Assembly (NCBI GenBank): GCA_900469625.1
Contig: UBXV01000035.1
Coordinates: 1 to 64,000, forward strand
Origin: Hyphomicrobiales bacterium
Lineage (GTDB): Bacteria; Pseudomonadota; Alphaproteobacteria; Rhizobiales; Rhizobiaceae
Reading direction: 5' to 3'
Length of the DNA stretch: 64,000 nucleotides
In this document: positions 4,676 to 30,715 of the stretch, in pieces
Layout of the letters: every line of letters starts with the position of its first letter
Numbering within the stretch: the stretch's first letter is position 1
Program-made: the position numbers and the translations under genes
The notes under the pieces: model-generated
The model's input: the letters and a program-made list of their open reading frames with translations, nothing else
What the model was told of the DNA's origin: nothing
Database searches by the model: none

Positions 4676-4700
4676 TTCGGTTCCCCATAATTTTGTAGAG

Positions 4701-4715
4701 CATAAAAAGTTTATG
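4701..4715. promoter_or_regulatory. Candidate TetR operator (inverted repeat)
   Basis: CATAAA-AAG-TTTATG is a perfect 6-base inverted repeat in the AT-rich divergent region between the BMP gene (start 4675) and the TetR gene (start 4804). It lies 26 bases upstream of the BMP start. Its role as TetR operator is inferred from position only. Confidence 0.35.
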
Positions 4716-4803
4716 TGACTATAAATTCTTGTCAACATCATTTTTGTTGCGCATTAAGGAAATTGGAGGCACAAGCCATGGACGGGAGGAAAAGGCAGGC
4801 GAA

Positions 4804-5437: not shown

Positions 5438-6325
5438 TCAGGCGGGAATTGAACCGGCATCTCCGGCCTGCCCCAGGTGCTCGGCGATATAGGTCTCGAG
5501 GTAGTCGATTGCCTCGGTGGACTCAGCAGTCGGCAGGCGGTGCAGGCGCACTTCCAGATAACCGAGCGATTCCAGGCCGTCGGCCGCTCCGAGCAGCCGC
5601 ACGTCACCCGGAAGGGTGCTCTTGGCCATCGCGGTAACGCCTAGCCCGGCCCTGACGGCGGCAAGCACGGCGCTGTGGCTGGAACTGAGATAGGCGATCC
5701 GGCAGGGCTTCGTCTCCCGGTTCAGCTGCTGCAGCATGCGCCGGCGGTAGACACAGGGCGGCGGCGCCAGCACCAGCGGCAGAGGACTTTGCATGTGCCC
5801 GAAGTGATCCGCGCTGGTAAACCAGATCAACGGCTCCGTATGAACGGGTTTGCCACCGCCTGCCTGTGCGTCGTCGTGCAAGGCAACGACCAGATCGAAC
5901 TCGCCGTTCTTCTGACGCGTCAGAAGGTTCTTGCTGAGATCACTGGTCACTTCGAGCATGACATTGGGGTGGGCCTGGGCGAAACGCCCGAGCAGGTGCG
6001 GCAGAAGCGAGTCGGTATATTCGCTCGGCGCGCCGAGCCGGACCCGTCCGGAGACTTCAGGGCTTTGCATCAGGGCCAGGACCTCATCGTTCAGGGCCAG
6101 TATCCGCCGTGCATATTGCGCGAAGGTTCGACCCTGCACCGTCAGCTTCAGATTATGCGCGTCGCGCTGGAACAGCCGCACCCCGACGACGTCCTCCAGC
6201 CGTTTGATCTGCAGGCTCACTGCGGACTGGGTGCGCCCCACCATCTGCGCGGCGCGCGTAAAACTGCCTCCGTCGATCGCCTTGACGAAGCTGCGCATCA
6301 ACTCAGTCGGAATATTCTGCATCAT
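5438..6325 (-). CDS. LysR family regulator of the glycine/serine operon
   Basis: LysR-type regulator of about 295 residues with an N-terminal winged HTH (SFTRAAQMVGRTQSAVSLQI, about residues 20-39) and a C-terminal substrate-binding domain. An ATG at 6337 would put the start inside a 23-base inverted repeat, so starts at 6325 or 6322 are preferred; AGGA at 6332-6329 best fits 6322. It is divergent from glyA-lpdA-gcvTHP-sdaA, so glycine, serine or a related metabolite is the expected effector. The analogy with GcvA of enterobacteria is by role and position, not by shown orthology. Confidence 0.85.
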   Translation of the reverse strand: MMQNIPTELMRSFVKAIDGGSFTRAAQMVGRTQSAVSLQIKRLEDVVGVRLFQRDAHNLKLTVQGRTFAQYARRILALNDEVLALMQSPEVSGRVRLGAPSEYTDSLLPHLLGRFAQAHPNVMLEVTSDLSKNLLTRQKNGEFDLVVALHDDAQAGGGKPVHTEPLIWFTSADHFGHMQSPLPLVLAPPPCVYRRRMLQQLNRETKPCRIAYLSSSHSAVLAAVRAGLGVTAMAKSTLPGDVRLLGAADGLESLGYLEVRLHRLPTAESTEAIDYLETYIAEHLGQAGDAGSIPA

Positions 6326-16499: not shown

Positions 16500-17124
16500 C
16501 ACTCACTCCCCCCAATTGTGCCGATCACGGACACACGCTCCAACCTCTTGGACTACGCTTTCCTGCGGACCGCCCGACGCGCTCGATTCCTCCGCCCCGT
16601 CGGCCCACTCAGCATCTCCACATGCTGTATCCACTATAAACTTATAGTCTGTATATTTTTGTAGTAGCTAAACCACCCTTCGTCAACGGAGAAACCGCCG
16701 ACATAGGCGATGAGAATTTTCACGAGTCTGGCGAGGTTTTGATCTGGTTGAGACGACCGACGGGGGCGCGATCACACGGCTGGCTTCGACGACCGGACAT
16801 AGACGCCAACCATCGTATTCTCAGGGTGGAGTGAACAGTTGCAGGATAGGCCGGGAGGGTCCGGCGCGGTCTCCGCGCCATCGGCCTCGCAATGGCGCTC
16901 TCTATTCGGTGGAGACGCTTACCTTTCTGTCGAAACGAGGCAAGAAGACCAGAACCGACCTCTCGCTAGCTGCCCGGCGGTGACGCTCGTAGTCAGCCTG
17001 AGCCCGGAGCGCAGTCAGGTCGTTCGATCAGCGCAACGCCTGCACCAGCGAAAAATGAGCCGCAGTGCATCGTATGCGGAGCCAATCGCAGAAAGGCAAC
17101 GCATTTGGCGCAAATGCCGCTTGC
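16500..17124. other. Intergenic region with no supported gene
   Basis: About 600 bases between the APC permease and the LivF remnant. It holds the permease promoter area (AT-rich 16625-16670). Open frames on both strands lack recognisable domains or good ribosome sites, so I call none. Its far end adjoins decayed ABC transporter sequence, so it may be the wake of a deletion. Confidence 0.5.
16633..16648. promoter_or_regulatory. Inverted repeat upstream of the APC permease
   Basis: ACTATAA-AC-TTATAGT, a perfect 7-base inverted repeat about 134 bases upstream of the permease start in an AT-rich patch. It could be an operator for an unlinked regulator or lie within the promoter itself. Confidence 0.3.
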
Positions 17125-17309
17125 CGGTTCTATCGTGGCCTCTCTCGCTCTTTCTTCGATCACCACTACGGCAATCCCGTCCGCTGCCAACGTCCGGATC
17201 CGCATCAACCCATTCTGGACTAGCGTTGGGGAAGCGTCGTCGTGGTCTCATCCATGACGAACAGCTTCGGCTGAAGCACCAGCGCCCGCGCGATCGCGAT
17301 GGCTCGCCC
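17125..17309 (-). pseudogene. Decayed C-terminal fragment of a LivF/LivG-type ABC ATPase
   Basis: On the minus strand, one frame from 17309 reads GRAIAIARALVLQPKLFVMDE, the post-signature helix and Walker B of an ABC ATPase. A neighbouring frame continues ASPTLVQNGLMRIRTLAADG and then IAVVVIEERAREA, the H-loop region of branched-chain amino-acid ATPases. The two halves are joined by a frameshift at about 17240, and the N-terminal half and terminal residues are missing. It overlaps the 3' end of the ATPase gene at 17248, whose own tail runs through this remnant in a third frame. It is a dead remnant from a deletion or recombination between two ABC operons. Confidence 0.7.
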
Positions 17310-18018
17310 GGAAGAGCGTGCGGGTATAGTCGTGCTGCATGTCGCCGGCGCGCAATTGTGCGCGCGTCAGCGTTTCGACTGCGCGGGCGTTCTGCATCAC
17401 CATCAATCGATCGCACATATAGGAGATGACGGCGAGGTCGTGGCTGACGATGACAAAGGTCAGGTTAAGCTCTCGACGAAGGCGGTTGAGGAGATTGAGG
17501 ATTTCGGCCTGTACCGAGACGTCCAACGCCGAGGTCGGCTCGTCGAGCAGGAGCACCTCAGGCGACAGCGACAGGGCGCGGGCTATCGCCACGCGCTGGC
17601 GTTGGCCTCCGGACAGTTCGTGCGGGAAGCGAAACCGGTGTGCTGCCGTCAGCCCGATCATCTCCAGAAGCTCGACCGTGCGGGCATCCACATCCGACAT
17701 GCGATTGATCAGCATCGGCTCGGCGATGGCCTGGCCGATCGTGTAGCGGGGATGCAGCGAGGCATAGGGGTCCTGGAACACCATCTGCGCCACGCGCACG
17801 AGGTCGCGCCGCCTTGCCTTGCGCAGATCAATATCGCCGATGTGGATATCACCGGTCCATTGGCGATTGAGACCCATGACCGTGCGCAAGACGGTGGATT
17901 TGCCCGAGCCGCTTTCACCGACGAGACCGAAGCTCTCGCCGCCTTCCACCGAGAGGCTGACGTTGTGCACCGCCACGGCGCTGCCGAAATGGACGCTGAG
18001 ATTTTCGATGCGGATCAT
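17248..18018 (-). CDS. Peptide-type ABC transporter ATPase (DppF-like) with chimeric tail
   Basis: 256-residue ATPase of the oligopeptide/nickel class. Walker A is GESGSGKST (residues 35-43), signature LSGGQRQRVAIARAL, Walker B VLLLDEPTSALD and H-loop VSHDLAV. It ends with QHDYTRTLFRAS, the normal C-terminus of such subunits, and then 17 residues (HRDRAGAGASAEAVRHG) encoded by out-of-frame LivF-type remnant DNA. The catalytic core is complete, so it is probably functional. The start overlaps the stop of the sister ATPase by 4 bases. Confidence 0.88.
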   Translation of the reverse strand: MIRIENLSVHFGSAVAVHNVSLSVEGGESFGLVGESGSGKSTVLRTVMGLNRQWTGDIHIGDIDLRKARRRDLVRVAQMVFQDPYASLHPRYTIGQAIAEPMLINRMSDVDARTVELLEMIGLTAAHRFRFPHELSGGQRQRVAIARALSLSPEVLLLDEPTSALDVSVQAEILNLLNRLRRELNLTFVIVSHDLAVISYMCDRLMVMQNARAVETLTRAQLRAGDMQHDYTRTLFRASHRDRAGAGASAEAVRHG

Positions 18019-18866
18019 AGGCGGGCCTCTCCCCAGCTCGCGTCGCGCGCGAGAGTTGGCAGTGGTGTCAGCGGCCCATCGATGGCTGGCAGGCAGGCGA
18101 GCAGCCCCCGCGTATAGGGATGTACCGCCTCGTGCATGCGTCGCGCATCCAGCGTCTCGACGATCCGGCCGGCATACATGACCAGTACCCGGTCGCAGAA
18201 GCGCGAGACGAGGTTGAGGTCGTGGCTGATGAAGACAAGGCCCATGCCGCGGCGCCTGACCAGTTCATCCATGATCTCGAGCACCTGCACCTGCACCGTG
18301 ACGTCGAGGGCGGACGTGGGTTCGTCGGCGATCAGCAGTTCCGGCTCGCGCACCACCATCATGGCGATCATCACCCGCTGGCCCATGCCGCCAGAGAGTT
18401 CGTGTGGATAGAGGTCGTAGACCCGTTCCGGCGCTCGGATATGCACCGCCTCCAACACCTCGAGCACTTTCTGGCGCACTTTTGCTGACGGCAGCGATCG
18501 GGCGCCGAGCCGGATCGCCTCGGCGATCTGCTTGCCGACGCGCATCACCGGGTTGAGCGAGAATTTCGGATCCTGCAGGATCATGCCCATGCGATTGCCA
18601 CGCAGCTGCCGGCGCACCCGCGGCGAGGCCGAAAGCAGGTCGATGCCGGCAAAGGACATGACATCGGCCGAGACGCGCGCATGCTCCGGCAGAACGCCCA
18701 TCAGGGCGCGACTGGAGAGACTCTTTCCCGAGCCGCTTTCGCCGACGATGCCGAGCTTTTCCCGGCCGACTTCGAAGGAGACGCCCTTGACCGCCTCGAT
18801 CATCGTGCCGCCCTCGCCGGCAAAGGCGATGCGCAGGTTTTCCACGGTGACAAGCGTCTGGCTCAT
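18015..18866 (-). CDS. Peptide-type ABC transporter ATPase (DppD-like)
   Basis: 283-residue ATPase with Walker [10 protein letters not shown], signature ELSGGMGQRVMIAMM, Walker [13 protein letters not shown] and H-loop FISHDLNL. The C-terminal HPYTRGLLACLP motif marks the oligopeptide-porter class. It would form a heterodimer with the ATPase at 17248. Starts and stops overlap neighbours by 4 bases on both sides (ATGA), indicating one operon. Confidence 0.92.
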   Translation of the reverse strand: MSQTLVTVENLRIAFAGEGGTMIEAVKGVSFEVGREKLGIVGESGSGKSLSSRALMGVLPEHARVSADVMSFAGIDLLSASPRVRRQLRGNRMGMILQDPKFSLNPVMRVGKQIAEAIRLGARSLPSAKVRQKVLEVLEAVHIRAPERVYDLYPHELSGGMGQRVMIAMMVVREPELLIADEPTSALDVTVQVQVLEIMDELVRRRGMGLVFISHDLNLVSRFCDRVLVMYAGRIVETLDARRMHEAVHPYTRGLLACLPAIDGPLTPLPTLARDASWGEARL

Positions 18867-19765
18867 GCGCGCCTCCTCAAGTGCGGGTCGAGCAGGTCGC
18901 GCATGGCATCGCCCAGAAGGTTGAAGCCGAGGCTAACGATGAAGATCGCAAGTCCAGGCATCGTTGCCACCCACCACTGATCGAAGATGAATTTGCGTCC
19001 GGTCGAGATCATTGCGCCCCATTCGGGCAGCGGCGGCTGCGCGCCGAGGCCGATGAAGCCGAGTCCGGCGGCTGTCAGGATAATGCCCGCCATGTCGAGC
19101 GTCATGCGCACGATCACCGAGGAGAGGCACATCGGCATGATATGGCGCAAGACGATGCGGAACTCTGAGCCGCCGGCCAGCCTGACGGCGTTGACATAGT
19201 CGCTGTCGCGAACGATCAGTGCTTCGGCCCGCGCGAGCCGCGCATAGGGCGGCCAGGCGGTGAGCGTGATCGCCAGCGCCGCATTGACGATGCCGGGCCC
19301 GAGAGCCGCCACGAAAGCAAGCGCCAGCAGCAGTTTCGGAACGGCAAGGAAAACGTCGGTGATGCGCATGAACACCGCATCGACCCAGCCGCCAGACGTT
19401 CCCGCCACCGCGCCGATGATGAGGCCGATCGGCGCGGATGTCGCCACCACCAGCCCCACGATGAGCAGGGTCAGCCGGGCGCCATAGAGGATGCGGGAGA
19501 AGATATCACGACCCAGTTCGTCAGTGCCGAGCCAGTTCTCAAAGCTCGGTGGCGAAAGGCGGTGCACGAGATCTGGCAGGTAGGGATCATGGGTCGCAAG
19601 AAGGGGCGCGAAGACTGCGCTCGCCAGCAGCACACCGAGGATGGCAAGGCCGATCATGCCCAGCGGATTACCGGCGAAACGGCGGGCAAACTTGGTGAAT
19701 TCACCGAGGCGCGCACGCCGAAGCTGGCGGCGGGTCTCGGCATGGGTGAGATTGATGGCGGTCAT
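18863..19765 (-). CDS. Peptide-type ABC transporter permease (DppC-like)
   Basis: 300-residue inner-membrane permease. An N-terminal OppC-type helix (NPLGMIGLAILG) is followed by HDPYLPDLVHRLSPPS and WLGTDELGRDIFSRILYGAR, the standard periplasmic entry of DppC subunits. The coupling EAA region is near YVNAVRLAGGSEFRIVLRHI. It follows the DppB-like gene by 9 bases and overlaps the next ATPase gene. Confidence 0.92.
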   Translation of the reverse strand: MTAINLTHAETRRQLRRARLGEFTKFARRFAGNPLGMIGLAILGVLLASAVFAPLLATHDPYLPDLVHRLSPPSFENWLGTDELGRDIFSRILYGARLTLLIVGLVVATSAPIGLIIGAVAGTSGGWVDAVFMRITDVFLAVPKLLLALAFVAALGPGIVNAALAITLTAWPPYARLARAEALIVRDSDYVNAVRLAGGSEFRIVLRHIMPMCLSSVIVRMTLDMAGIILTAAGLGFIGLGAQPPLPEWGAMISTGRKFIFDQWWVATMPGLAIFIVSLGFNLLGDAMRDLLDPHLRRRA

Positions 19766-19774
19766 GGCGGCCTC

Positions 19775-20899
19775 CTACCGGCGACGAAGGTTGGAGCGCG
19801 GATCGAGCATCTGGTAGACGACGTCCGAGACCATGTTGAGCAGGATGAACACGGCGCCGACCAGCACCGTGCCGCCGAGCACGGCGTTGATGTCGGCCCT
19901 GAAGAGCGATGAGGCTATGTAGTTGCCGATACCAGGCCAGGCGAAGACCGTCTCGACGAGCACGGAGCCTTCCAGCAGGCCGCCGTAGGAAAGGGCGATC
20001 ACCGTGACGAGCGGGATGGCGGCATTTCGCAGCGCATGCAGCATCACCGCGCGATATTCGGTCGCCCCCTTGAGGCGGGCCGTCAGCACATATTCCCGCG
20101 ACAGCTGGTCGAGCATCATCGAACGCGTCATGCGCGAGATGTAGGCGAGGCTGTAGTAGCCGAGCAGCGCTGCCGGCAGCACGATATGGCTCAAGGCGTT
20201 GCCGAAGACTTCCCACTCGCCAGATAGAAGCGAGTCGATCAACAGCGAGCCGGTCACCGGTTTGACGATGCCCTGATAGAAGACGTCGATCTGGCCAGGA
20301 CCGGCCACCCAGTCGAGCCGGGAATAAAAGACGAAGAGACCGACCAGTCCAAGCCAGAAGATCGGCACGGAATAGCCGATGAGGCCGACAAAGCGGATCA
20401 CGTAGTCGGGCCATTTGTCGTGCCAATAGGCAGCGGCCACGCCCGCCGGCACGCCGATGAGCGTGCCGGCCAGAAGGCCGAGCGTCGCAAGCTCCAACGT
20501 CGCGGGAAAGAAGCCGGCGAGGTCCGAGAGCACGGGCCGGTTCGTGACGAAAGAGATGCCAAAATCGCCCCGAACGAGCTTTCCGGCATAGACGACGAAC
20601 TGCTGCCAGAGCGGCTTGTCGAGGCCCATTTCGAGGAAGACGCGCTGGTAGACCTCCTCGCTCGCCTTCTGTCCGACCACCGACAGGACCGGATCGATCG
20701 GCACAACGCGGCCGATGCAAAAGGTGAGTGCCACCAGGCCAATGAGCGTGATGCCCACGGTGAGGAGAAGCGTGAGGATCCGGCCGGTGATACCGAGAAC
20801 CCGGTTGATGAGAACTGCCGGCACGAACCACTCCGTTGGCTTGACTGCGATTGACCTCGGCCGCGACCGGCGCCGGAGCACCGTTCGCGGCCGAAACAT
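19775..20899 (-). CDS. Peptide-type ABC transporter permease (DppB-like)
   Basis: 374-residue permease, slightly long for DppB because about 30 basic N-terminal residues precede the first helix (ILTLLLTVGITLIGLVAL). The true start may therefore be downstream of 20899. The C-terminal EAA loop reads EYVLTARLKGATEYRAVMLHALRNA, shown here in full family form (about residues 265-289), and VFAWPGIGNYIASSLF is the typical DppB ending. It sits 12 bases after the binding-protein gene. Confidence 0.9.
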   Translation of the reverse strand: MFRPRTVLRRRSRPRSIAVKPTEWFVPAVLINRVLGITGRILTLLLTVGITLIGLVALTFCIGRVVPIDPVLSVVGQKASEEVYQRVFLEMGLDKPLWQQFVVYAGKLVRGDFGISFVTNRPVLSDLAGFFPATLELATLGLLAGTLIGVPAGVAAAYWHDKWPDYVIRFVGLIGYSVPIFWLGLVGLFVFYSRLDWVAGPGQIDVFYQGIVKPVTGSLLIDSLLSGEWEVFGNALSHIVLPAALLGYYSLAYISRMTRSMMLDQLSREYVLTARLKGATEYRAVMLHALRNAAIPLVTVIALSYGGLLEGSVLVETVFAWPGIGNYIASSLFRADINAVLGGTVLVGAVFILLNMVSDVVYQMLDPRSNLRRR

Positions 20900-20911
20900 G
20901 GGTTCGGACGG

Positions 20912-22498
20912 TTACTTGATTACGTTCCAGTATCGGTCGTCGGCGAAGGTCTGCCCGAGGACGACCCCCTTGATCGAACTGCGCACGCCGACCTTTCGGA
21001 CCTGCTGGAACATGTAGAGGAAGGGCGAGGTGTCGGTGTGTGCCTTCTGCAGGGTTTCATACATCGCCCGTCGCTTGTCCGTATCCTGCTCGCGCACGGC
21101 CGCCATCGCATCCTGCGACAGGCTTCCGGCCGCCCAGCCAAATCGATCGGCAAGGCCGGCGGAACCGTCCGGCGCATCCTGCTTGTTCACGGCAAAGGCC
21201 TTGGCGTTGGAATGCGGGTCGGGATAGTCCGGCCCCCACAGGCCGAGCCAGATGTCGAGGTTTGACGAGCGATAGCGCTCCAGCCACTGCTGACCGTCGA
21301 CGACTTCAAGGTTCAGTTTGACGCCGGCCTGCGCCATCGTCGCCTGGATCGCCTGGGCGAAGTCAGTGTAGGGCGGCGTGTTCCAGACAACGGTGTCCAG
21401 CGTGAGCTCACCCGAAATTCCGGCCTCGCCCAACAGCGCCTTTGCCTTCTCGATATCGAGCTTGTACGGATTGTAGTCGATTTCGCCGAGGAAACCCTTC
21501 GGCACCAGCGTCTGGTGGACTTCCACCGTGCCACGCGAAATCGTGTCAGCGATGCCCTGGTAGTCGACCAGATACTTCAGCGCCTGCACGACCTTGGGCT
21601 TGGCCAGGTGCTCGTTCCTGACGTTCAGGCCCATGTAATAGATGGTTCCGGAACGACCGTCGACGAAGCCGACGTCCGGGTTCTCCTCGATTGCGCCGAA
21701 ATCATCCGGCCCGAGTTTGTTGGCGATGTCGATGTCGCCCTTTTCGAGCAACAGGCGCTGTGCGGCGCTTTCGGGAATGTGCTGGAGGAAGATCCGCTCC
21801 AGGCCTCCGGTCTCGCCGGTATAATTGGGATTGCGGGTCAACATGATTGACTGCTTGGGCTCCCAGCGCGACAGCACATACGGACCGGAACCGGCGGAGT
21901 TCTCAACCTTCAGCCAGGCATTGCCGAAGTCGCCATTGACCTCGTGCTCCTGCACCAGCTTGGAATCGACGATGCCGCCGACATAGGAAGACAGACAGTA
22001 ATAAAGGAACGACGGCGCATAGGTGTCACCGATCTCGATGACCAGCGTCATGTCGTCGGTCGCCTTGATGCGATCCTTGACGTTCTCAGGCGTGAAGCCG
22101 AACTGGGTGAGAATGAAGGCAGAGCGCGACTTCATCTGCACGACGCGGCGTAGCGAGTATTCCGCATCCCTCGCCGTCACCGGATTGCCGGAGGCGAATT
22201 TCAGCCCCGGACGCATCTTGAAGGTATGGGTCTTGCCGTCCGGCGAGGCCGTCCAGCTTTCGGCGAGCACGCCGATGATCTTGCTGGAATCGTCGGTCGC
22301 TGCCGTCAGAAGCGGCTGGTAGATCTGATTTGCCGCAAGCACGCCGCCAACCTCCGAGACCTCGCCCGGATCAAGCGTGATGATGTCGTCGATGGCATCG
22401 GCCACGACGAGCGTGTTCTTCGGCGTTTCGGCCAAAGCCTGGCCAGTTGCCAACGCCAGCACGAGCGCCGCGCCGTTTATCAATTTTTTCACGCGCAT
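20912..22498 (-). CDS. Peptide/opine-type ABC transporter substrate-binding protein
   Basis: 528-residue periplasmic protein of the SBP_bac_5 family. The signal peptide is MRVKKLINGAALVLALATGQ with cleavage after ALA. ATG 22498 is chosen over an upstream ATG because GGAGG lies just before it and it begins the signal peptide. Family stretches include LAESWTASPDG, FKMRPGLKFASG and GPDYPDPHSN. It is the first gene of a five-gene operon and sits about 160 bases downstream of a perfect operator shared with the XRE-cupin regulator. Ligand unknown; peptides, amino-acid conjugates or opines are possible. Confidence 0.92.
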   Translation of the reverse strand: MRVKKLINGAALVLALATGQALAETPKNTLVVADAIDDIITLDPGEVSEVGGVLAANQIYQPLLTAATDDSSKIIGVLAESWTASPDGKTHTFKMRPGLKFASGNPVTARDAEYSLRRVVQMKSRSAFILTQFGFTPENVKDRIKATDDMTLVIEIGDTYAPSFLYYCLSSYVGGIVDSKLVQEHEVNGDFGNAWLKVENSAGSGPYVLSRWEPKQSIMLTRNPNYTGETGGLERIFLQHIPESAAQRLLLEKGDIDIANKLGPDDFGAIEENPDVGFVDGRSGTIYYMGLNVRNEHLAKPKVVQALKYLVDYQGIADTISRGTVEVHQTLVPKGFLGEIDYNPYKLDIEKAKALLGEAGISGELTLDTVVWNTPPYTDFAQAIQATMAQAGVKLNLEVVDGQQWLERYRSSNLDIWLGLWGPDYPDPHSNAKAFAVNKQDAPDGSAGLADRFGWAAGSLSQDAMAAVREQDTDKRRAMYETLQKAHTDTSPFLYMFQQVRKVGVRSSIKGVVLGQTFADDRYWNVIK

Positions 22499-22655
22499 TT
22501 TTCCTCCTTCAGGCGTGAAGGGTTTCACCTTTCACCGCCTGCCCCCGCGTTGCGTTGTTTGAAATGCTAGTCCGCTTTCCGGCCCGGTCCTGTGACACAG
22601 ACACCGCACCGGCGAAGCGGCTTCCCGTCGGAGCGGCCTCCACCACTCCACCTCG

Positions 22656-22678
22656 AAACTTTAGTCACGCTAAAGTTT
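22656..22678. promoter_or_regulatory. XRE-cupin operator at the peptide transporter promoter
   Basis: AAACTTTAG-TCACG-CTAAAGTTT is a perfect inverted repeat with 9-base arms. The core CTTTAG-N5-CTAAAG recurs in the regulator's own promoter at 23389-23405. Two copies in the two promoters flanking one regulator gene make it a strong operator candidate. Confidence 0.65.
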
Positions 22679-22746
22679 ATTGAGGGCGTTTGTCAATCGG
22701 TCTCATGATAATTTCTGGGAGAACTGATGTGGCTGCCGCGCCCCCA

Positions 22747-23355
22747 TCACCGCTCCGGTATGATCCGCGTCGTGCCGACCCAAAGTTCCCGCGCCTCGCC
22801 GTGCCCGACATTGCGCGCACGGTGCGGCAAGGATGCGGGAAAGTGCAGCGTGTCCCCTGCCGTGAGCTGATACTTGCGGTCGCCGACCTCGTAGAGCATC
22901 TCGCCCTCGATGACATAGAGGAAGTCTTCGCCCTCGTGGCGCGTCACATCCGAGACGTATCCGGGAGGCATGTGCGTGATACAGCTGTTGAGAAGTGCAC
23001 CGGGAAAACCGCGCTGCAGCAGTTGGTACACCCGCTCTTCCGCCTCGATACTGTAGTTGTGGCGCTCGCTCGCATGCGAGACCACGGAATGGGACCGCTG
23101 CGGCACTTGCGGCAGAAAAGCCTCGACACTCGCCTCCAGACTGGAAGCGAGGTTGCAAAGCGAGATCAAAGAGGGCGTCGAAAGACCGCGCTCTACCTGA
23201 CTGACAAAACCCTCGCTAAGGCCCGCCTCGCGCGCAACCTGCCTCATCGTCTTGCCGATTTCCTTGCGCCGCTGTCGAAGCGCACGCCCGAGTGAAACGG
23301 CAGGTGGAAAAAGAGGGGATCCCTTCTGCGGCACCTCCCGATCGTTGAAGCTCAT
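22747..23355 (-). CDS. XRE-cupin transcriptional regulator
   Basis: 202-residue regulator: an N-terminal HTH_3 domain (TMRQVAREAGLSEGFVSQVE, about residues 36-55) followed by a C-terminal cupin (HEGEDFLYVIEGEMLYEVG, about 139-157; LPHRARNVG near the end). The class typically senses amino acids, polyamines or related ligands through the cupin. It lies upstream of the peptide transporter operon in the same orientation but with its own promoter. Both promoters carry CTTTAG-N5-CTAAAG, implying autoregulation and control of the transporter. Confidence 0.88.
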   Translation of the reverse strand: MSFNDREVPQKGSPLFPPAVSLGRALRQRRKEIGKTMRQVAREAGLSEGFVSQVERGLSTPSLISLCNLASSLEASVEAFLPQVPQRSHSVVSHASERHNYSIEAEERVYQLLQRGFPGALLNSCITHMPPGYVSDVTRHEGEDFLYVIEGEMLYEVGDRKYQLTAGDTLHFPASLPHRARNVGHGEARELWVGTTRIIPER

Positions 23356-23945: not shown

Positions 23946-24971
23946 TCAGTTGCTGGCAGCAACTTTCTTGAGGGCTGCATCGTAGAAGGAACGGTCAATC
24001 CAGGTCTCGTAATTGACCTTGCCCTTCAACAGATCCGCATCCGCCATAAAAGCTTCTTCGCCCTGTAGCGCCTTGACGGCATCCTGCGTGATTTCGGGGT
24101 CCTGGAAGAAGCTGCCTTTCGGGTAAGTGGCCCTTACTGCCTTTTCGCTACTGCCGGTCTCCTTGACGAAGATCGCGATGGTCTCTTCCGGGTTTGCGTC
24201 TGCCCAGCGAGCAGTCGCGATATCGACGGCCAGCAGACGCGTCACGATGTCAGGATACTTGGCCGCAAATTCACCGTTGACGCTGAGGAGATGCGGAACC
24301 GCCCAATCCGGGTCGCCCGACACGCCGGCGTCGAAGATCACGCGCGCCGCGCCTTTTTCGACAAGCGTCTGGACAGGCCCCGTGCTCTCCACGATCGCAT
24401 CGACGTCGCCACGCGCCAGCGCCGGACCGGAGCTTTCGATACCGAGGTTCAGGCTCTCCACATCCTTGAGCGAAAGTCCGGCAGCCTTGAGTGCCTTGGC
24501 GAAGGTCGAGTGACGCACGGTGCCGGAGAGATAGGCGGCCTTTTTGCCCTTCAGGTCCTCGATCTTCTGGATCGAAGACTCCGGCTTGACGACGATCTGC
24601 GTTTCGTTCGAGCGGTTCCAGCTCGAAAGGCCGATGAGTTTGACGTCGGCGCCGGTCGCCGCAAGGCGAAGCGACGGATTGTTGCCGATATAGGTGAAGT
24701 CGATGGCCCCGGAACCGAGCGCGACAGTCGCGGCCGAACCGCCATCAAATGTCGTCAGCTCGATCTTGATGCCATCCTTGGCGAACTCGTCCTCCAGTAG
24801 CTTCTTGTTGCGATAGAGGATGAATTTCAGGTGGCCGGGCGCGGTGGATCCGATGCGGATGACCTCGGGCTTCGCCTCGTCGGCGAAGGCGGGCATGGCG
24901 TGGGCAGCCGGCAGAAGCGAGAATGCAATGGCGAGCTTCAACAGCGTCCGGCGGAGCGGATTGGACGTCAT
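23946..24971 (-). CDS. Sulfonate/nitrate-type ABC substrate-binding protein (SsuA-like)
   Basis: 341-residue periplasmic protein of the SsuA/TauA class. The signal peptide spans about residues 1-31 (MTSNPLRRTLLKLAIAFSLL...), ending near AFADEAK. Mature-region features are IRIGSTAPGHLKFILYR, FDGGSAATVALGSGAIDFTY and KKAAYLSGTVRH. ATG 24971 is preceded by AAAGGA. It heads no promoter of its own that I can see; it is the last gene of the operon read from 29356. Aliphatic sulfonates are the best family guess, though this fold also binds other small anions and heterocycles. Confidence 0.88.
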   Translation of the reverse strand: MTSNPLRRTLLKLAIAFSLLPAAHAMPAFADEAKPEVIRIGSTAPGHLKFILYRNKKLLEDEFAKDGIKIELTTFDGGSAATVALGSGAIDFTYIGNNPSLRLAATGADVKLIGLSSWNRSNETQIVVKPESSIQKIEDLKGKKAAYLSGTVRHSTFAKALKAAGLSLKDVESLNLGIESSGPALARGDVDAIVESTGPVQTLVEKGAARVIFDAGVSGDPDWAVPHLLSVNGEFAAKYPDIVTRLLAVDIATARWADANPEETIAIFVKETGSSEKAVRATYPKGSFFQDPEITQDAVKALQGEEAFMADADLLKGKVNYETWIDRSFYDAALKKVAASN

Positions 24972-25018
24972 GGATGGATCCTTTCGAGATCGCGTGTTCG
25001 TTGGGAGGGAGGCTGGAC

Positions 25019-25882
25019 TCAGTTCGGGCCGCTGTCGGCGTTGCCACGCCAACGGGTGGCGCGCCGTTCGCCGGCCACCAGCAGGTAGTTGAGGAGAAGG
25101 CCGATGATCGTGAGCGTCAGGATGCCGGCGTACATCCGGTCGGTTTCCAGCATCAGCGAAGCGTTCTGGATGAGGTAGCCGATGCCGGATTGGGCTGCGA
25201 GCATCTCCGCGGCGATGACCGAGAAGAGCGAGGTCTTCACACCAAGCCTTGCGCCTGCGACGATCGAAGGCACCGCCGAGGGAAGTATGACCTTCTTGAA
25301 GAGGTCCCAATCGGACGTTCCCATCGAGCGGGCCGCTTTTACCAGTAGCGGGTCGACCGACTTCACGCCAACGATGGTGTTGATCAGCAGGAAGAAGACG
25401 GCCGCATAGAAAGTGATGGCGATTTTCGACGCCTCGCCGATGCCAAGCAACAGGATGAAGACGGGCAGCAAGGCAAATTGCGAGGTATTGCGCAGGGTCT
25501 GGACGAGAAAGTCCGAGGCCTTTTCGAAGAGCGGATAGCGCCCCATCAAAAGGCCGAGCGGCACGGCGACAACCACGGCAAGCGAAAAGCCGATCGCGGC
25601 GCGCTGCAGGCTGATGCCGATGTGATCGGCAAGCTGACCGGAGACAATCATCTCCCACAGCACCGAGAGCACCTGGCTGAGGGGCGGGAAAAAGAGCGCG
25701 TTGATCCAGCCGGCGCGCGGCGCGATCTCCCAGAGAAGCGCAAAGGCGATGAGCGCCGGAAGGCCGAGTGTGATGGTTGAGAAGGTTTCACCCAACACCG
25801 TCGGCGGCTTCTCCGCCGCGCGTTTTCGGCGCGATGAAAAGGTGTTGCGGAGCGGCAGGTTGCGGTCGGCGATCAGACTCAT
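25019..25882 (-). CDS. Sulfonate/nitrate-type ABC permease (SsuC-like)
   Basis: 287-residue inner-membrane permease with about six hydrophobic segments. The coupling loop reads AARSMGTSDWDLFKKVILPS (about residues 185-204), the EAA form of the SsuC/TauC family, and GIGYLIQNAS follows. It lies between the ATPase gene (11 bases) and the binding-protein gene (47 bases). Confidence 0.9.
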   Translation of the reverse strand: MSLIADRNLPLRNTFSSRRKRAAEKPPTVLGETFSTITLGLPALIAFALLWEIAPRAGWINALFFPPLSQVLSVLWEMIVSGQLADHIGISLQRAAIGFSLAVVVAVPLGLLMGRYPLFEKASDFLVQTLRNTSQFALLPVFILLLGIGEASKIAITFYAAVFFLLINTIVGVKSVDPLLVKAARSMGTSDWDLFKKVILPSAVPSIVAGARLGVKTSLFSVIAAEMLAAQSGIGYLIQNASLMLETDRMYAGILTLTIIGLLLNYLLVAGERRATRWRGNADSGPN

Positions 25883-25893
25883 CGGAGCCTCCC

Positions 25894-26730
25894 TCAGTTG
25901 GCATAGCTGGATGCCAGCACCCAGTCGCGCTGGGCTTTGACGACTTCGTCACGCAGGCTTTCCCAGACGCGACCGCGATAGGCATTGAACGCTGCGCTGT
26001 TGCGGATTTCGAGGTCGCGCGGGCGCGGTAAATCGATCTCGACGATCTCCTTGACGCTTGCCGGGCGCGCGGTCATCACGACCACGCGGTCGGCGAGGTA
26101 GATTGCCTCGTCGATCGAATGGGTGACAAAGACGACGGTCGTCTTGATCTGTTCCCAGATGCGGAGAAGTTCACTTTGCAGAATGTCGCGCGTCTGGGCG
26201 TCGAGTGCAGCAAAGGGCTCGTCCATAAGAAGCACCTGCGGATCGGTGGAGAGCGCCCTGGCGATTGCCACGCGCTGCTGCATGCCGCCGGAAAGCTGCG
26301 AGGGGAAGCGGTCTTCGAAGCCTTTGAGCCCGAAAAGATGCAGGAAATGACGGGCCTTCTCTCGGCGCTCTGCCGCCGGCACGCCGCGAACCTCCAGCGC
26401 ATATTCGATGTTCTGGAGCGCCGTTCGCCAGGGAAAGAGCGCGTATTGCTGGAAAACATATGCTGTGCGGGCGTGCGGCTTCGAAACCTCGATGCCATCG
26501 ATCCGGGCAACGCCTGAGGTCGCCTCGGTCAATCCGGCAATGACGTCGAGCAGAACGGACTTTCCGCTGCCGGAAGGCCCGACGAGAGTGATGAATTCGC
26601 CGCGCCTGATTGTCAGGTCGACGCCGTCAAGCACCGCAATGCGGTTGGAAGTAACACCGTCGACCGTTACGGTCTGGCCTTGTTTGAGCGTGAATGTTTT
26701 GCGCAGTGCGCTGACGGCTATACGTTCCAT
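25894..26730 (-). CDS. Sulfonate/nitrate-type ABC ATPase (SsuB-like)
   Basis: 278-residue ATPase with Walker A GPSGSGKSV, Q-loop FQQYALFPWRT, signature LSGGMQQRVAIARAL, Walker B VLLMDEPFAALD and H-loop VTHSIDEA, the canonical SsuB/TauB pattern. The start ATG 26730 (MERIAVSALRK) lies 13 bases after the ferredoxin stop; the upstream open frame is the shadow of that gene. An internal insertion, QGQTVTVDGVTSNR, before the first strand pair is somewhat unusual. Confidence 0.92.
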   Translation of the reverse strand: MERIAVSALRKTFTLKQGQTVTVDGVTSNRIAVLDGVDLTIRRGEFITLVGPSGSGKSVLLDVIAGLTEATSGVARIDGIEVSKPHARTAYVFQQYALFPWRTALQNIEYALEVRGVPAAERREKARHFLHLFGLKGFEDRFPSQLSGGMQQRVAIARALSTDPQVLLMDEPFAALDAQTRDILQSELLRIWEQIKTTVVFVTHSIDEAIYLADRVVVMTARPASVKEIVEIDLPRPRDLEIRNSAAFNAYRGRVWESLRDEVVKAQRDWVLASSYAN

Positions 26731-26743
26731 GGTCGAACTCCCT

Positions 26744-27073
26744 TCAAACCTGCGCCACGCGGATGTGGCGGGTCGGATCATTTTGCGCGCCGCCGGCGCG
26801 GCCGCGGCTCCAGCCGAGCGACCGGGCGTAGGCGCCGAAAAGGTCACGCTCCACCACCTCGGCTTCGGCGATGCCGATCGGTCCGTGTGCCGCCTCGGCG
26901 ACATAGAGCGCATCCGTCGGACAGTAGATTTCACAGAGAAAGCAGGTCTGGCAGTCGTCCTGCCGGGCGATGACCGGAAGGCCGGTTTCGTCGCGATCGA
27001 AGACGAAGGCGGGGCAGACCCGTTCGCAGATGTCGCAGCGGATGCAACGGTCCGAGGAAATGACTTCGATCAT
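26744..27073 (-). CDS. Two-cluster 4Fe-4S ferredoxin subunit
   Basis: 109-residue iron-sulfur protein with two cysteine motifs, CIRCDICERVCP (residues 10-21) and CQTCFLCEIYCP (41-52), each suited to a [4Fe-4S] cluster. The spacing and the 50-residue C-terminal extension recall AprB-like electron-transfer subunits. Its start lies 3 bases after the flavoprotein stop, so the two are very likely a complex. With the sulfonate-type transporter downstream, it probably feeds or drains electrons in the oxidation or reduction of the imported compound. Confidence 0.88.
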   Translation of the reverse strand: MIEVISSDRCIRCDICERVCPAFVFDRDETGLPVIARQDDCQTCFLCEIYCPTDALYVAEAAHGPIGIAEAEVVERDLFGAYARSLGWSRGRAGGAQNDPTRHIRVAQV

Positions 27074-27076
27074 CGC

Positions 27077-28705
27077 TCAGCCCTCCCGAGCCGTTTCAAG
27101 CGCGAGATCTTCACGCAATGCGCTTACCCGATCGAGGCCGGAGACGATGATGCGGCTCGCCTGCCTTTCGTCTTCGCGCGGAAAGTCGCTCCGGCGATGC
27201 ACGCCTCGGCTTTCCGTGCGCAGAAGTGCTGCAGCGACCGTCCAACGGGCGCTCGCCGTTACGGAGGCCACCTCTCGAGCGCGAAGACGCTCGATGCCGA
27301 CTGAAGGCTTTGCCTGGTTAAGGCCGGCCCACACGTCTTCGAGGATGCGACGGCTGGCTTCGAGCACATTGGCCTTGCGCCAATAGCTTCTGTCGAGCGG
27401 CACGATCTCGTCATGGACCGTGCGGGCCGCAACCGCCAGTTCGACGTCCTCGCGCTGACCGGCGCCGCGCAAACCCGTTGCGCCAAGCGGCCGCAGGCGC
27501 GCGAAATCCCGGTGCTTTCGACTGCGGGCGTGGTGGGCAGCGCCGTGACCGGACCACCAGCCGCTCGCGATCGCCCAGGAGGCGTTGATTGCGCCGCCTC
27601 CGGAAACGCCGCCGGTCACGTTTTCGCGGCTCGCCGCGTCGCCGGCGGCGTAGAGGCCGGCAATGCCGGTTCCACAGTCGGAGGAGACGATGCGGATACC
27701 ACCCGTGCCACGCACCGTGCCCTCGTATTTGAGGTCCACCCGGAACAGCTGTTCGAAAGGGTTGATCCCCATGCGATCATAGGGCTGAAAACAGTTCGGC
27801 TGACCACGACGCAGCCAGTCCTGGATCGCCGGTTCGGCAAGATCGAGCCGCGCATAGACCGGTCCGGACAGCAACGCCTCGGCGACCTGACGCTCGCCGC
27901 CGCCGATACCGTTCGTTACCGGTTCTCCGCGATCGTCACGCAACACCTCGCCGCTCTCCCGGTAAAAGGTGGCCCAGCGGAAGGGCAGCCCCTTGTTGAG
28001 AGAGGAACCGTGCGGGGCAAGCGTGTACTTTCCGGTGAACTCCATGCCGGAAAGCGATGCGCCAGCCTCCGCAGCAAGCAGATAACCATCGCCGGTGAGC
28101 CCTGTCCCTCCAAGGATCCGTTCGAAGAAGGCGCATCCTCCGGTGGCGAGCACGACGGCACCGGCTGCCACGGAAAAGCTCGCGCCATTGCGGCGCGAAA
28201 GTCCTGCCGCGCCACCGACATGATTTTCGTCACCGAGCAATTCCAGAATCGGATGATGGTCGAGGATGGTGACGCCGGCCTTCTGTACACGTTGGCGCAT
28301 GAAGCGCATGTAGTCGGGGCCGCGCAGGTTGGCGATGTAGAGACTACCGTCCTCTTCGCTCGGAAAGGGATAACCCCAGTCGACAAGCTTCTGGAGATTT
28401 TCATAGGCTCGATCCGCCGCACGCAACATCCAGCGGCGATCGGCAAGGCCAGCCGTGCGTTTGAAGCGCTGCTCGACCGAAGCCGCCCTGCCCTCTCCCG
28501 GCGGCACACACCACGTTCCCGTATTGGAAGGAGCCGTTGCGCCGCTCGTGCCATGATAGCCCTTGTCCGCCAAGATGACGCGCGCACCGGCTTCTGCAGC
28601 TGAAAGCGCAGCCCAGGCGGCGGCGGGGCCGCCACCGACCACCAGCACGTCCGTCTCCATGTGTCGCCCGTCTTCGGTGGGCTGTTCCTTGCGACGCGAT
28701 GCCAT
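27077..28705 (-). CDS. FAD-dependent oxidoreductase, AprA/fumarate-reductase-like
   Basis: 542-residue flavoprotein. The N-terminal FAD motif is VVGGGPAAAWAALSAAEAGA (about residues 21-40), followed by a capping domain and a C-terminal helical region with RTESRGVHRRSDFP, as in succinate dehydrogenase/fumarate reductase and adenylylsulfate reductase A subunits. A second Met (28660, METDVLVVGG) is an alternative start. The adjacent two-cluster ferredoxin mirrors the AprBA arrangement, but gene context (sulfonate-type ABC, redoxin) and the short length set it apart from dissimilatory AprA. The reaction is unknown. Confidence 0.85.
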   Translation of the reverse strand: MASRRKEQPTEDGRHMETDVLVVGGGPAAAWAALSAAEAGARVILADKGYHGTSGATAPSNTGTWCVPPGEGRAASVEQRFKRTAGLADRRWMLRAADRAYENLQKLVDWGYPFPSEEDGSLYIANLRGPDYMRFMRQRVQKAGVTILDHHPILELLGDENHVGGAAGLSRRNGASFSVAAGAVVLATGGCAFFERILGGTGLTGDGYLLAAEAGASLSGMEFTGKYTLAPHGSSLNKGLPFRWATFYRESGEVLRDDRGEPVTNGIGGGERQVAEALLSGPVYARLDLAEPAIQDWLRRGQPNCFQPYDRMGINPFEQLFRVDLKYEGTVRGTGGIRIVSSDCGTGIAGLYAAGDAASRENVTGGVSGGGAINASWAIASGWWSGHGAAHHARSRKHRDFARLRPLGATGLRGAGQREDVELAVAARTVHDEIVPLDRSYWRKANVLEASRRILEDVWAGLNQAKPSVGIERLRAREVASVTASARWTVAAALLRTESRGVHRRSDFPREDERQASRIIVSGLDRVSALREDLALETAREG

Positions 28706-28768
28706 CTTGTTCCGGTCTAAAAAAGAGAGCGTTGGCCGGCGCTTCGACCGGCCATTTGCGGTTGGTGA

Positions 28769-29356
28769 TCAGGCGGCAGTCGAGAACCAGGACGGTTCGT
28801 TGCCGACCGTCCACTTGATGTTGCAGCCGATCGAGGGGACCTGGCCCGTGCCAAGCGCCTCGCCTTTCAGGACGGCGTCCACGGCCGCACGCAGGTCCGC
28901 GCCCGTCACGTCCTTACCGTTGCCGGGCCGGGCGTCGTCGAACTGGCCGTGATAGGCAAGTTTGCGATCGCGATCGTAGAGGAAGAAATCCGGCGTGCAG
29001 GCCGCACCATAGGCCTTGGCGACGTCCTGCGATGCGTCCTTCAGATAGGGGAAACCGTATCCGTGCGCCTTCGCCTCCGCGCTGATACGCTCCAGTGTCT
29101 CCTCTGGATGCGCTTCGGCGTCGTTGCTGTTGATGGCGACGACGGCAAGCCCCTGCCCGGCGTAGTCGCGGGCAAACTTCGCCAGCTCCTCGCGGATCAA
29201 CACCACGAAGGGGCAGCGATTGGAGATGAAGCCGACGAGCAGCGCCGGGCTATCCTCGAATTCGGCGAGTGTGAACAGGTTTCCATCGGCATCGGGCAAG
29301 GTGAAATCCGCGGCGCGGGTTCCGAGCTTGATGGGGTTGGATTCGGTTTTGGGCAT
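28769..29356 (-). CDS. Redoxin (AhpC/TSA-thioredoxin fold) with altered CxxC
   Basis: 195-residue cytoplasmic redoxin. Residues TRAADFTLPDADGN begin the fold; the place of the usual CNHC motif reads SNRCPF, so the first cysteine is lost and one remains, while a second cysteine sits in GAACTPDFFLYD. The family (peroxiredoxin-like thioredoxins of about 190 residues) is often linked to detoxification, but no reaction is established from sequence. ATG 29356 has AGGAGG 6 bases upstream. It is the first gene of the operon that continues into the flavoprotein, ferredoxin and ABC genes. Confidence 0.85.
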   Translation of the reverse strand: MPKTESNPIKLGTRAADFTLPDADGNLFTLAEFEDSPALLVGFISNRCPFVVLIREELAKFARDYAGQGLAVVAINSNDAEAHPEETLERISAEAKAHGYGFPYLKDASQDVAKAYGAACTPDFFLYDRDRKLAYHGQFDDARPGNGKDVTGADLRAAVDAVLKGEALGTGQVPSIGCNIKWTVGNEPSWFSTAA

Positions 29357-29390
29357 GGTATCCTCCTGGCAAGCCAACAGGACTATTAAC

Positions 29391-29414
29391 CTATGAAATC
29401 CATAGATTTTATAG
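29391..29414. promoter_or_regulatory. Repeated CTATR half-sites upstream of the redoxin operon
   Basis: CTATG-AAATC-CATAG followed by ATTT-TATAG, in an AT-rich patch about 35-58 bases upstream of the redoxin start. The first pair is a 5-base inverted repeat. This is the likely promoter/operator area for the operon 29356-23946; the regulator is not in the window. Confidence 0.3.
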
Positions 29415-29605
29415 ATATCAATTTTCTCGGAATTGCTGGCCTTTGAGATAATCTTGCCGCGCAGCCGGGCAAGACCCGGATTTTATTTCGGCTTGCCTGA
29501 AACATGCCCGTTCGCTTCAATCCTCCGGCAGACAAGCGTTTTCGGAGCTGTCGACGAAAGCGCTCTCGTACAGAGGTATCGTGCCATTCCGCCCCCACGT
29601 TGTGA

Positions 29606-30715
29606 TCAGATCACGAATTCCGCCTCGTAGGTCTGTGGCTCGGGAACCACCGTAACCTCCACCGGAACGATCCAATTGGCCCCGTAGCTCTCGAAGTCGG
29701 AATGCTGCAGGTCGGGCTGCACACGCCCCGCCCCATCGCTCGCGCGACATCGCAGTTTGTATTGCCCCACGTCTTCAGGGGTCCAGATGTACTCCCACAA
29801 GCGCCATACAAAGGGACGCTCCGCCTCGAGGAGCCTTGCGTCGCGCCACCCCCTGCCGTCTCCGGTGCAGACCTGCACCTGCCTGATAGGGGCCTCGCCG
29901 CTCCAGGCGGCTCCGAAAATCCGGTATGGTTGCCCGGTGATGAGACGCGCGCCCTGTACGGGTCGCGCGATCTGCGCTTTCACCTCCATCTCCGTGAGGG
30001 GCACAAGCCGGGGTTCCCCGAGGTTGCGCTCCCAACGGAAGTAGTCGCGGGCCTGCCAGTAGCCAAGGAACGGCTGTTCCAAAACCGTGATATGCGTGAT
30101 CCACTTGACCCAAGCCATGCCGAACCAGCCACCCACAACCGCCCGCAGCGGGTAGCCGTGTTCACGCGTTAACGGCGCATCGTTCATCGAATAGGCGAGC
30201 ATCGTGCTGTCAGCGACAGCCTTCGCAAGCGGTAAACTACGGGCAAATGCGATGGGGCCGGGAGAAGCCGTTTTCCTGTTCGTGTCGACGACGCCGCTGT
30301 CTGCGCCCACAAGCAGAACCTCACGCGCGGTTTGCCTGACGCCCGCCATCTCCAAGATCTCGCGCAGAAGAACACCTGTCCAAGCAGCATTGCCGACGGC
30401 TCCGTTCTGCCACTGCAACCCCTCTTTCGGTGGCACGTAATAGACGCGGCCGTTCCCGGCGCACTCGACGACGGCGTTGAATGTCGCGCTCCGCATCGAC
30501 TTGATGCTGTCGAGGTCGAGTTCGATCGGCCGCTCGACCGCCCCGTCAACGCGTAATCTCCAGTCTCGCACATCGAGGTCCGGCGCAGGGAAATGGTTTC
30601 GCACGAAGAACAGCTCGGTCGGGATCAGCCAATCGGAGAGCGATGCAAACGGGAACTCGGTGTTCTCCGGGGATTTCTGTCGAACAATCAGACCGGGCTG
30701 CTCTTGTGTCGGCAT
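29606..30715 (-). CDS. Sulfite oxidase family molybdoenzyme
   Basis: 369-residue molybdenum cofactor protein of the sulfite oxidase family. The Moco-binding cysteine is Cys85 in AVVECAGNGR. The N-terminal oxidoreductase domain (about residues 20-210) includes GYPLRAVVGGWFGMAWVKWI, and the C-terminal Mo-co dimerisation domain ends near EVTVVPEPQT. No signal peptide is seen, unlike periplasmic SorA. There is no adjacent cytochrome gene. ATG 30715 (MPTQEQPGL) was chosen over 30742 on GGGGAGAAG spacing. It probably oxidises sulfite released by the neighbouring sulfonate-type module, although a separate promoter separates the two units. Confidence 0.87.
   Translation of the reverse strand: MPTQEQPGLIVRQKSPENTEFPFASLSDWLIPTELFFVRNHFPAPDLDVRDWRLRVDGAVERPIELDLDSIKSMRSATFNAVVECAGNGRVYYVPPKEGLQWQNGAVGNAAWTGVLLREILEMAGVRQTAREVLLVGADSGVVDTNRKTASPGPIAFARSLPLAKAVADSTMLAYSMNDAPLTREHGYPLRAVVGGWFGMAWVKWITHITVLEQPFLGYWQARDYFRWERNLGEPRLVPLTEMEVKAQIARPVQGARLITGQPYRIFGAAWSGEAPIRQVQVCTGDGRGWRDARLLEAERPFVWRLWEYIWTPEDVGQYKLRCRASDGAGRVQPDLQHSDFESYGANWIVPVEVTVVPEPQTYEAEFVI

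Follow-up and report, generated by a model that had tools for sequence, protein, structure and literature searches.

A mobile operon of Rhizobiaceae and relatives joins an AsfA/AsfB-family flavoprotein-ferredoxin pair to a sulfonate-type importer and carries a promoter element found before ssuD

Why should an importer of the sulfonate type be encoded in one operon with a flavoprotein, a ferredoxin and a redoxin? The question is raised by six genes on the minus strand of a 64,000-nucleotide stretch of Hyphomicrobiales bacterium DNA (assembly GCA_900469625.1, contig UBXV01000035.1, positions 1 to 64,000; hereafter the window), which belongs to a genome of 6.54 Mb, assembled in 74 contigs. A preliminary description, made from the letters of the window, took these genes and a neighbouring sulfite oxidase for an undescribed organosulfur module working without SsuD or TauD. 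The reading that we favour, at somewhat better than even, is that of a mobile sulfonate-scavenging operon in which an AsfAB-type redox step is added to the SsuD route, and which is co-regulated with ssu. What is new here is a subfamily of a known flavoprotein-ferredoxin kind, housed in a conserved mobile operon that is probably controlled together with ssu. The features concerned are the following (aa, amino acids; ABC, ATP-binding cassette; FAD, flavin adenine dinucleotide).

28769..29356, minus strand: redoxin, a thioredoxin-family protein of 195 aa (Pfam AhpC-TSA/Redoxin; orthologue of SMc02350, PDB 3u5r)
27077..28705, minus strand: AsfA-like FAD flavoprotein of 542 aa, complex-II superfamily, assigned to a subfamily of its own (Pfam, tree, fold, signature)
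26744..27073, minus strand: AsfB-like ferredoxin of 109 aa with two four-cysteine cluster motifs (Fer4 dicluster; eight cysteines; linked to the flavoprotein)
25894..26730, minus strand: ABC importer ATPase, nitrate/sulfonate/taurine type (family scans, ABC_tran)
25019..25882, minus strand: ABC importer permease (BPD_transp_1; nearest models SaoP, SsuC and TauC, all below cut-off)
23946..24971, minus strand: periplasmic binding protein, SsuA family (NMT1; TIGR01728, 315.2 bits)
29385..29417, minus strand: palindromic promoter element, common to ssuD promoters (CTATAAAAT-N6-ATTTTATAG, idealised)
29606..30715, minus strand: sulfite-oxidase-type molybdoenzyme, a neighbour judged to lie outside the unit (Oxidored_molyb, Mo-co_dimer)

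The six block genes run head to tail from 29356 to 23946, all frames open, with intergenic gaps by coordinates of 63, 3, 13, 11 and 47 bases from redoxin to binding protein. The genes named in the preliminary description are thus all there, including the gap of only 3 bases between flavoprotein and ferredoxin, and family scans bore out its family names, the AprA label holding at the superfamily level only. The flavoprotein combines FAD_binding_2 with a partial Succ_DH_flav_C of the fumarate-reductase type at its C-terminus. It has one N-terminal FAD region, at which the FAD-type Pfam matches all begin at residue 19 (including Pyr_redox_2 at 35.8 bits), and a separate NAD(P)H domain was not found in the Pfam scan. 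The cysteines of the ferredoxin lie at positions 10, 13, 16 and 20 and at 41, 44, 47 and 51. The binding protein passes the SsuA_fam model TIGR01728 (315.2 bits, cut-off 163.5) and also lies above the cut-off of the OpuAC model (32 bits, cut-off 21.2); its four best solved chains are two SsuA proteins, one TauA and one named nitrate transport protein.

To which known proteins does the flavoprotein-ferredoxin pair belong? Cupriavidus metallidurans CH34 has a single homologous place for the flavoprotein on its second replicon (47.2% over 527 aa), with a gene directly after it for a ferredoxin that matches ours at 50.5% over 91 aa. The CH34 record carries no labels, and we placed the gene by interpolation between six TauD genes and six published TauD tags, assuming that their orders correspond. 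It falls at about Rmet_4339, within five genes of Rmet_4334/5, the published AsfA/AsfB of this strain (PMC2864759), and the CH34 homologue is a probable AsfA. Judged from sequence, our pair is a member of the AsfA/AsfB family, the only published family that fits. The asfRABC genes are described as an extra tool-kit beside ssu for aromatic sulfonates: asfA mutants of P. putida S-313 lose the use of aromatic sulfonates and keep that of aliphatic ones, and asfA serves as a marker gene for bacteria that mobilise aromatic sulfonates (PMC4267179, PMC9694294). Our search of the literature, within the library available, found no enzymology of AsfA/AsfB-type pairs, and two studies on actinobacteria fed organosulfur compounds leave AsfA unnamed in the main text searched.

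Set beside asfRABC of P. putida S-313 and asfRAB of CH34, the window shares the flavoprotein family, an AsfB-like ferredoxin directly after it, a sulfonate-type ABC importer nearby and an SsuD in the genome. It differs in that no asfR (LysR) gene was found beside the block, a redoxin stands in front, the ABC genes have an order of their own, and the flavoprotein belongs to a separate subfamily whose loop reads TGGVSGGGAINASWA rather than CGGFTGGGSHNAAWA. This separateness emerges from a flavoprotein tree of 73 rows, which omits the minus-strand loci L120, L123, L125-L127, L130 and L134, the loci L005 and L133, and the broken or split frames L078, L091-L093 and L118; four of the 13 block flavoproteins described below (L118, L135, L137 and L138) are therefore outside it. 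The window clade (9 rows) has a support of 100/100 and a stem of 0.83 changes per column; the CH34 protein falls outside it. At eight positions all clade members agree on a residue unlike the one that at least 80% of the 62 other members have. The loop comprises residues 364-378, with further forms in other members; the signature CGGFTGGGSHNAAWA for the CH34 type was defined here from the alignment and is unpublished. The window flavoprotein can thus be regarded as a separate and well-supported subfamily within the AsfA family.

In the tree, the AsfA-like family reaches Cyanobacteriota, Bacillota, Myxococcota and Armatimonadota, which extends its range past the Proteobacteria and Actinobacteria for which asfA had been named (PMC4267179, PMC9694294). 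Six of the loci, the Actinomycetota loci L065, L077, L079 and L084 and the Paenibacillus loci L038 and L067, hold two pairs of different subfamilies, one copy with the CH34-type loop and the pairs apart in the tree, an arrangement that may reflect two steps, or else two related substrates. In another member, Nostoc edaphicum plasmid pNe_5 (L036), an AsfA-like pair lies within a dense organosulfur island that also holds ssuD, three annotated LLM oxidoreductases, a nitroreductase and a sulfonate-type binding protein.

Is the block conserved as a unit? The sample comprised 63 loci: the window, 11 records from a plasmid collection (six hand-picked from 60 rows, and five close relatives) and 51 of 69 loci from a homologue search, the other 18 (L097-L114) being dropped as short or weak matches. 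A further six stretches around homologues in relatives were examined (L135-L140). The full order redoxin-flavoprotein-ferredoxin-ATPase-permease-binding protein occurs in 13 loci of Rhizobiaceae and relatives. Nine are among the 63, namely the window, S. meliloti Ak57 (L035), Brucella pituitosa (L046), Aureimonas altamirensis (L047), E. adhaerens (L115), two Shinella (L116 and L118), Sinorhizobium sp. RAC02 (L117) and S. mexicanum (L119); the other four are L135-L138, while L140 lacks a redoxin and L139 holds a distant homologue. These 13 are not all independent, L136 being close to L115, and the flavoprotein frame of L118 is split. Recurrence in the same order at 13 loci is nevertheless far above chance, and on this point, a check that the preliminary description had called for, the block is conserved as a unit. 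Of the 63 loci, 57 have the ferredoxin together with the flavoprotein, and 45 hold an ABC ATPase of the block type somewhere in the stretch. In L138, from a genome of the same taxonomic order, one ABC importer lies between two flavoprotein-ferredoxin pairs (2.1-9.1 kb), and a gene for a major facilitator superfamily (MFS) transporter is divergent from them.

In comparison with the three closest relatives, similarity extends 105-107 bases ahead of the redoxin and 57 bases past the binding protein, and with three further relatives it ends 56-111 bases before the redoxin; the unit therefore comprises the promoter together with the six genes. In 9 of the 13 loci, the window not among them, the block is followed by an MFS transporter gene, and no remnant of such a gene was found in the window. 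The redoxin may be dispensable, because in B. pituitosa its gene is degraded (L046:7589-7912; 46% match over 146 residues, frame shortened) while the five other genes are kept, matching at 87-94%. Distribution is patchy. The block is carried by 3 of 16 genus genomes, our own included, a fourth having only a 46% flavoprotein homologue; a flavoprotein homologue was found in 2 of 61 genomes of a family sample (our own and G057) and, with a limit of E 1e-60 and no more than five candidates scored in any genome, in 8 of 249 genomes of the order. In the plasmid collection, E. adhaerens records hold the closest flavoproteins (92%), which makes Ensifer the probable genus of our genome. The six genes form a mobile, patchily distributed operon.

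The block has a counterpart in print. The redoxin model superposes on PDB 3u5r, titled 'hypothetical protein SMc02350 from Sinorhizobium meliloti 1021', with Z 31.8 and 87% identity; the redoxin of S. meliloti Ak57 is identical to 3u5r at 194 of 195 positions, and all six genes recur in Ak57 at 84-94% identity. A six-gene operon, printed as 'smc0235-smc02344', was studied in 2018 with an smc02350 fusion, and its expression rose on deletion of either of two pSymB regions (PMC5940162); the words sulfur and sulfonate occur zero times in the main text of that paper. Taken together, the redoxin, the Ak57 block and the printed operon match our block to smc02350-smc02344 of S. meliloti 1021 as far as sequence can tell: the redoxin is the orthologue of SMc02350, there are six genes, and SMc02344-46 are reported as ABC transporter genes, the difference being the MFS transporter gene that follows the block in Ak57 and is absent from the window. 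The system had accordingly been called undescribed in error, since its pair falls in the AsfA/AsfB family and an orthologous operon is in print. Literature searches on SMc02340-43, SMc02349, 3U5R and sulfur-starvation transcriptomes of Rm1021 gave nothing decisive, nor did those on the neighbouring genes or on sulfonate regulons. In passing, the Ak57 record CP090106.1 is labelled pSymB and yet is 3.7 Mb long, presumably the size to be expected of an S. meliloti chromosome, and the label looks wrong.

How might the operon be controlled? An AT-rich palindrome, idealised as CTATAAAAT-N6-ATTTTATAG, is common to 14 upstream regions (the 13 block loci and L140), with L137 having the weakest form; in the window it lies 28 bases before the redoxin start. 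We built a matrix from 12 of the 14 block-promoter sites only, aligned by eye, omitting L115 (near-identical to L136) and L140 (without redoxin), and took as background 400 kb from two contigs of our own genome and also 320 pieces of 1.2 kb. In our own genome this matrix scores 30.3 directly before ssuD against a background maximum of 22.9, and 29.6 at the second SsuD-like locus, where the site precedes a binding-protein gene that stands ahead of the SsuD-like gene. In all 15 other genus genomes the best site near the ssuD start, within 1.2-1.3 kb searched, scores 29.1-41.4 and the ssuD sites always lie 75-105 bases before the SsuD domain; the 320 background pieces peak at 22.9. When the 16 ssuD upstream regions, of 250 bases each, were put through 640 dinucleotide shuffles, no shuffle attained the real score; the highest gave 24.1. 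A second SsuD-like gene in three relatives gave 20.9, 26.6 and 28.2. Sites were also found at two further AsfA-like genes, one in L057 (27.1) and one in L073 (27.9, directly adjoining the presumed start). A degenerate pattern hits six distinct places in 6.5 Mb, block and ssuD included, and its reversed control two; as it was written after the ssuD site had been seen, its ssuD match is not independent. Because a matrix trained on the block finds its best site before ssuD in 16 of 16 genomes, block and ssu probably share a regulon, with the element as operator or promoter of a sulfur regulon. This element strengthens the view of the block as a sulfur module.

Lesser matches to the element were also noted. 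One in our own genome (L171, C56:48302) scores 23.4, barely over background, 60-70 bases before a rhodanese-domain gene. Another (L170, C23:6477), with 1 mismatch to the pattern, had no clear gene start seen beside it, with the end of an MbnB/TglH-family gene about 1.4 kb off. Within the window, AT-rich stretches at 16628-16660 and 4676-4750 bear a weak likeness to the element (15.6 and 8.3 with the 12-site matrix).

The preliminary description had made much of the lack of SsuD and TauD, and a profile search indeed found neither on the contig of the window. Outside the window, however, a full SsuD of our own genome reaches 621 bits (cut-off 518), and a further SsuD-like gene (415 bits) and a single gene of the TauD family are also present there. 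SsuD is over cut-off in 16 of 16 genus genomes, block carriers and non-carriers alike, so that the check on whether SsuD is missing where the block recurs came out the other way. These profile searches of genome and genus rule out a reading without SsuD and TauD. Beyond the genus, SsuD is over cut-off in 7 of 8 flavoprotein carriers versus 6 of 20 non-carriers (one-sided Fisher p 0.0087), the non-carriers having been hand-picked from among genomes lacking a strong match, with no control for genome size; among the 8 carriers the six-gene block itself was seen in G180 and G283 only.

We can now present a rough proposal. The SsuA-family binding protein and its ABC importer would, by family, take up an organosulfonate. 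The ferredoxin would wire electrons to the FAD of the flavoprotein, the two making an AsfAB-type iron-sulfur flavoenzyme, and the imported compound would undergo a two-electron redox step at the FAD that enables or assists cleavage of the C-S bond. Sulfite would then be freed with the help of the SsuD encoded elsewhere, as the published partnership of asf and ssu suggests. For the redoxin, which looks dispensable, a role in controlling thiols or peroxides is probable, and the operon is probably switched on together with ssuD when sulfate is short. Compared with ssuEADCB, the block shares the SsuA-family binding protein, the ABC importer and, in the genus, the promoter element before ssuD, but holds the flavoprotein-ferredoxin pair in place of SsuD. 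Of the organosulfur module first proposed, then, the sulfonate-type importer and the pair, conserved as a unit, stand and are strengthened by the promoter element common with ssuD, whereas its being undescribed, free of SsuD and linked to sulfite oxidase does not.

Several observations weigh against this proposal. With regard to regulation, the TauD-family locus of our own genome scores 8.2 and has no element; the CH34 locus is likewise without it (best 12.6, obtained with a first, partly misaligned 13-site matrix); and the ssuD promoters are orthologous, so that the 16 matches are one observation repeated. As for SsuD, the carrier G151 is without a full copy. With regard to the family, the CH34 flavoprotein gene lies on the minus strand, so that rising tags would put asfB before asfA, and the paper prints AsfA/AsfB as 4334/5; the window flavoprotein lacks the CH34-type loop signature; and no LysR gene was found beside the block, the nearest in the window being at 5477-6322 (one seed was used, which found none at the CH34 locus either). 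Because the loop differs and a LysR neighbour was not found, AsfA function is not assured for the window pair; beside the Ak57 block, too, no LysR gene is annotated. Finally, the S. meliloti importer genes SMc02344-SMc02346 were reported among those most induced under nitrogen stress and as down under phosphate stress (PMC8829014), they have been called a glycine-betaine/choline importer (PMC8829014; also PMC3596328), and SMc02344 was found to be Hfq-dependent (PMC3484140). In G151, SsuD fragments, one with a stop codon, lie at C3:123151-123449, about 4 kb from the AsfA-like gene.

What, then, does the pair itself do? A tentative answer, to which we give rather less than even weight, is that it is itself the enzyme, with imported sulfonates or a related C-S compound as its direct substrate and SsuD acting only downstream or in parallel. 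If so, it would represent a new iron-sulfur flavoenzyme subfamily in the fumarate reductase/APS reductase superfamily, and the wider AsfA family would have been misfiled as electron carriers. The other answer, given in the asf literature, is that the pair is a plain electron carrier to a monooxygenase, SsuD or another, and the presence of SsuD in genome and genus agrees with it; we hold it to be possible but rather doubtful. A single N-terminal FAD region and no separate NAD(P)H domain seen are not what this role would suggest, and the 364-378 loop varies between subfamilies that can share one locus. The predicted structure of the flavoprotein (mean pLDDT, the predicted local distance difference test, 87.4; pTM, the predicted template modelling score, 0.91) resembles FrdA (Z 43.9, 3.0 A, 487 residues), the methanogen PAPS reductase (Z 40.4, 3.7 A, 497 residues) and AprA (Z 33.7, 3.8 A, 511 residues). 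We lean to a catalytic role because these relatives in fold act on a substrate at the FAD, the odds between such a role and that of a pure carrier being about even.

The preliminary label of an AprBA-like pair is accurate for the superfamily and goes no further: the AprA model NF005331 gives the flavoprotein 61 bits against a cut-off of 557, and its fold is nearer to FrdA and PAPS reductase. AprBA and the Methanothermococcus PAPS reductase have in common with our pair a complex-II superfamily flavoprotein and a small two-cluster ferredoxin, but structural alignments give 17-22% identity, and our pair, far below the AprA cut-off, stands in a context of sulfonate importer and ssu. AprBA or fumarate reductase proper was rejected, the flavoprotein passing no NCBIfam cut-off among the matches listed (25 of 51 models).

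Could the sulfur be scavenged from some other compound, such as a sulfone, sulfamate, sulfonamide or thiosulfonate, and not from a classical sulfonate? The separateness of the subfamily, with its own loop signature, eight fixed differences and long stem of 0.83 changes per column, would suit such a substrate; the binding protein of the SsuA family and the promoter element common with ssuD point back to sulfonates, and we regard this alternative as unlikely. The odds given here overlap, as both the plain carrier and the other sulfur compound share the scavenging part of the reading that we favour.

Less likely still is that importer and enzyme serve a nitrogen compound or an osmolyte (glycine betaine, choline) and are induced by nitrogen stress. 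The naming of the S. meliloti genes as a glycine-betaine/choline transporter (PMC8829014; PMC3596328) and the OpuAC match of the binding protein speak for it. That protein is, however, far closer to SsuA_fam (315 bits), and the promoter element is common with ssuD. Sites resembling those of sigma-54, searched with a consensus of 12 positions in 14 upstream regions of 260 bases, have at best 3-5 mismatches of 12, and with none below 3 of 12 a sigma-54 (nitrogen) promoter is unsupported. The nitrogen-stress RNA-seq compared ammonium with glutamate in Minimal MOPS (PMC8829014). The word sulfate occurs zero times in the main text of that study. Because MOPS is itself a sulfonate buffer, sulfur supply may have differed between the conditions, a possible confounder and no refutation.

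A self-contained pathway without SsuD or TauD, its sulfite cleared by the adjacent sulfite oxidase, is very improbable, since what favours it is adjacency in the window, whereas the sulfite oxidase adjoins the block in 1 of 13 loci and is not co-distributed with it in the genus, and SsuD is encoded in this genome and in all 16 of the genus. The molybdoenzyme (30715-29606) sits 249 bases upstream of the block and stays below the NCBIfam cut-offs of SorA, SoxC, SorT and MsrP. Among the fetched stretches, that of L118 reaching only about 1.8 kb before the redoxin, the window alone has a sulfite oxidase beside the block; another AsfA-like locus (L078) has a 31% sulfite-oxidase match nearby. Orthologues occur in 7 of 16 genus genomes. 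Two of these, our own and G061, carry the block, a single contig of G061 holding gene and block some 290 kb apart; the other five lack the block, and in one of them the gene contains a stop. G075, a block carrier, yielded no sulfite-oxidase orthologue at the threshold used. Similarity to relatives ends before reaching the sulfite oxidase gene. We judge it a bystander outside the unit; as a partner that clears by-product sulfite, the role first proposed for it, it is rejected on the grounds of neighbourhood and genus distribution.

Sulfonates are described as a main organic sulfur store in soils (PMC4267179, PMC9694294). With the assignment made here, an operon of S. meliloti 1021 whose ABC genes had been listed as a betaine/choline importer is placed in the AsfA/AsfB family and probably in the ssu regulon, and the role of an AsfAB-type pair becomes testable in a genetic model with easy genetics and an existing reporter fusion.

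Downstream of the block, and with no visible tie to it, the window holds an oligopeptide-type ABC operon (17248-23355, binding protein 20912-22528) preceded by a gene for a helix-turn-helix-cupin regulator (22747-23355).

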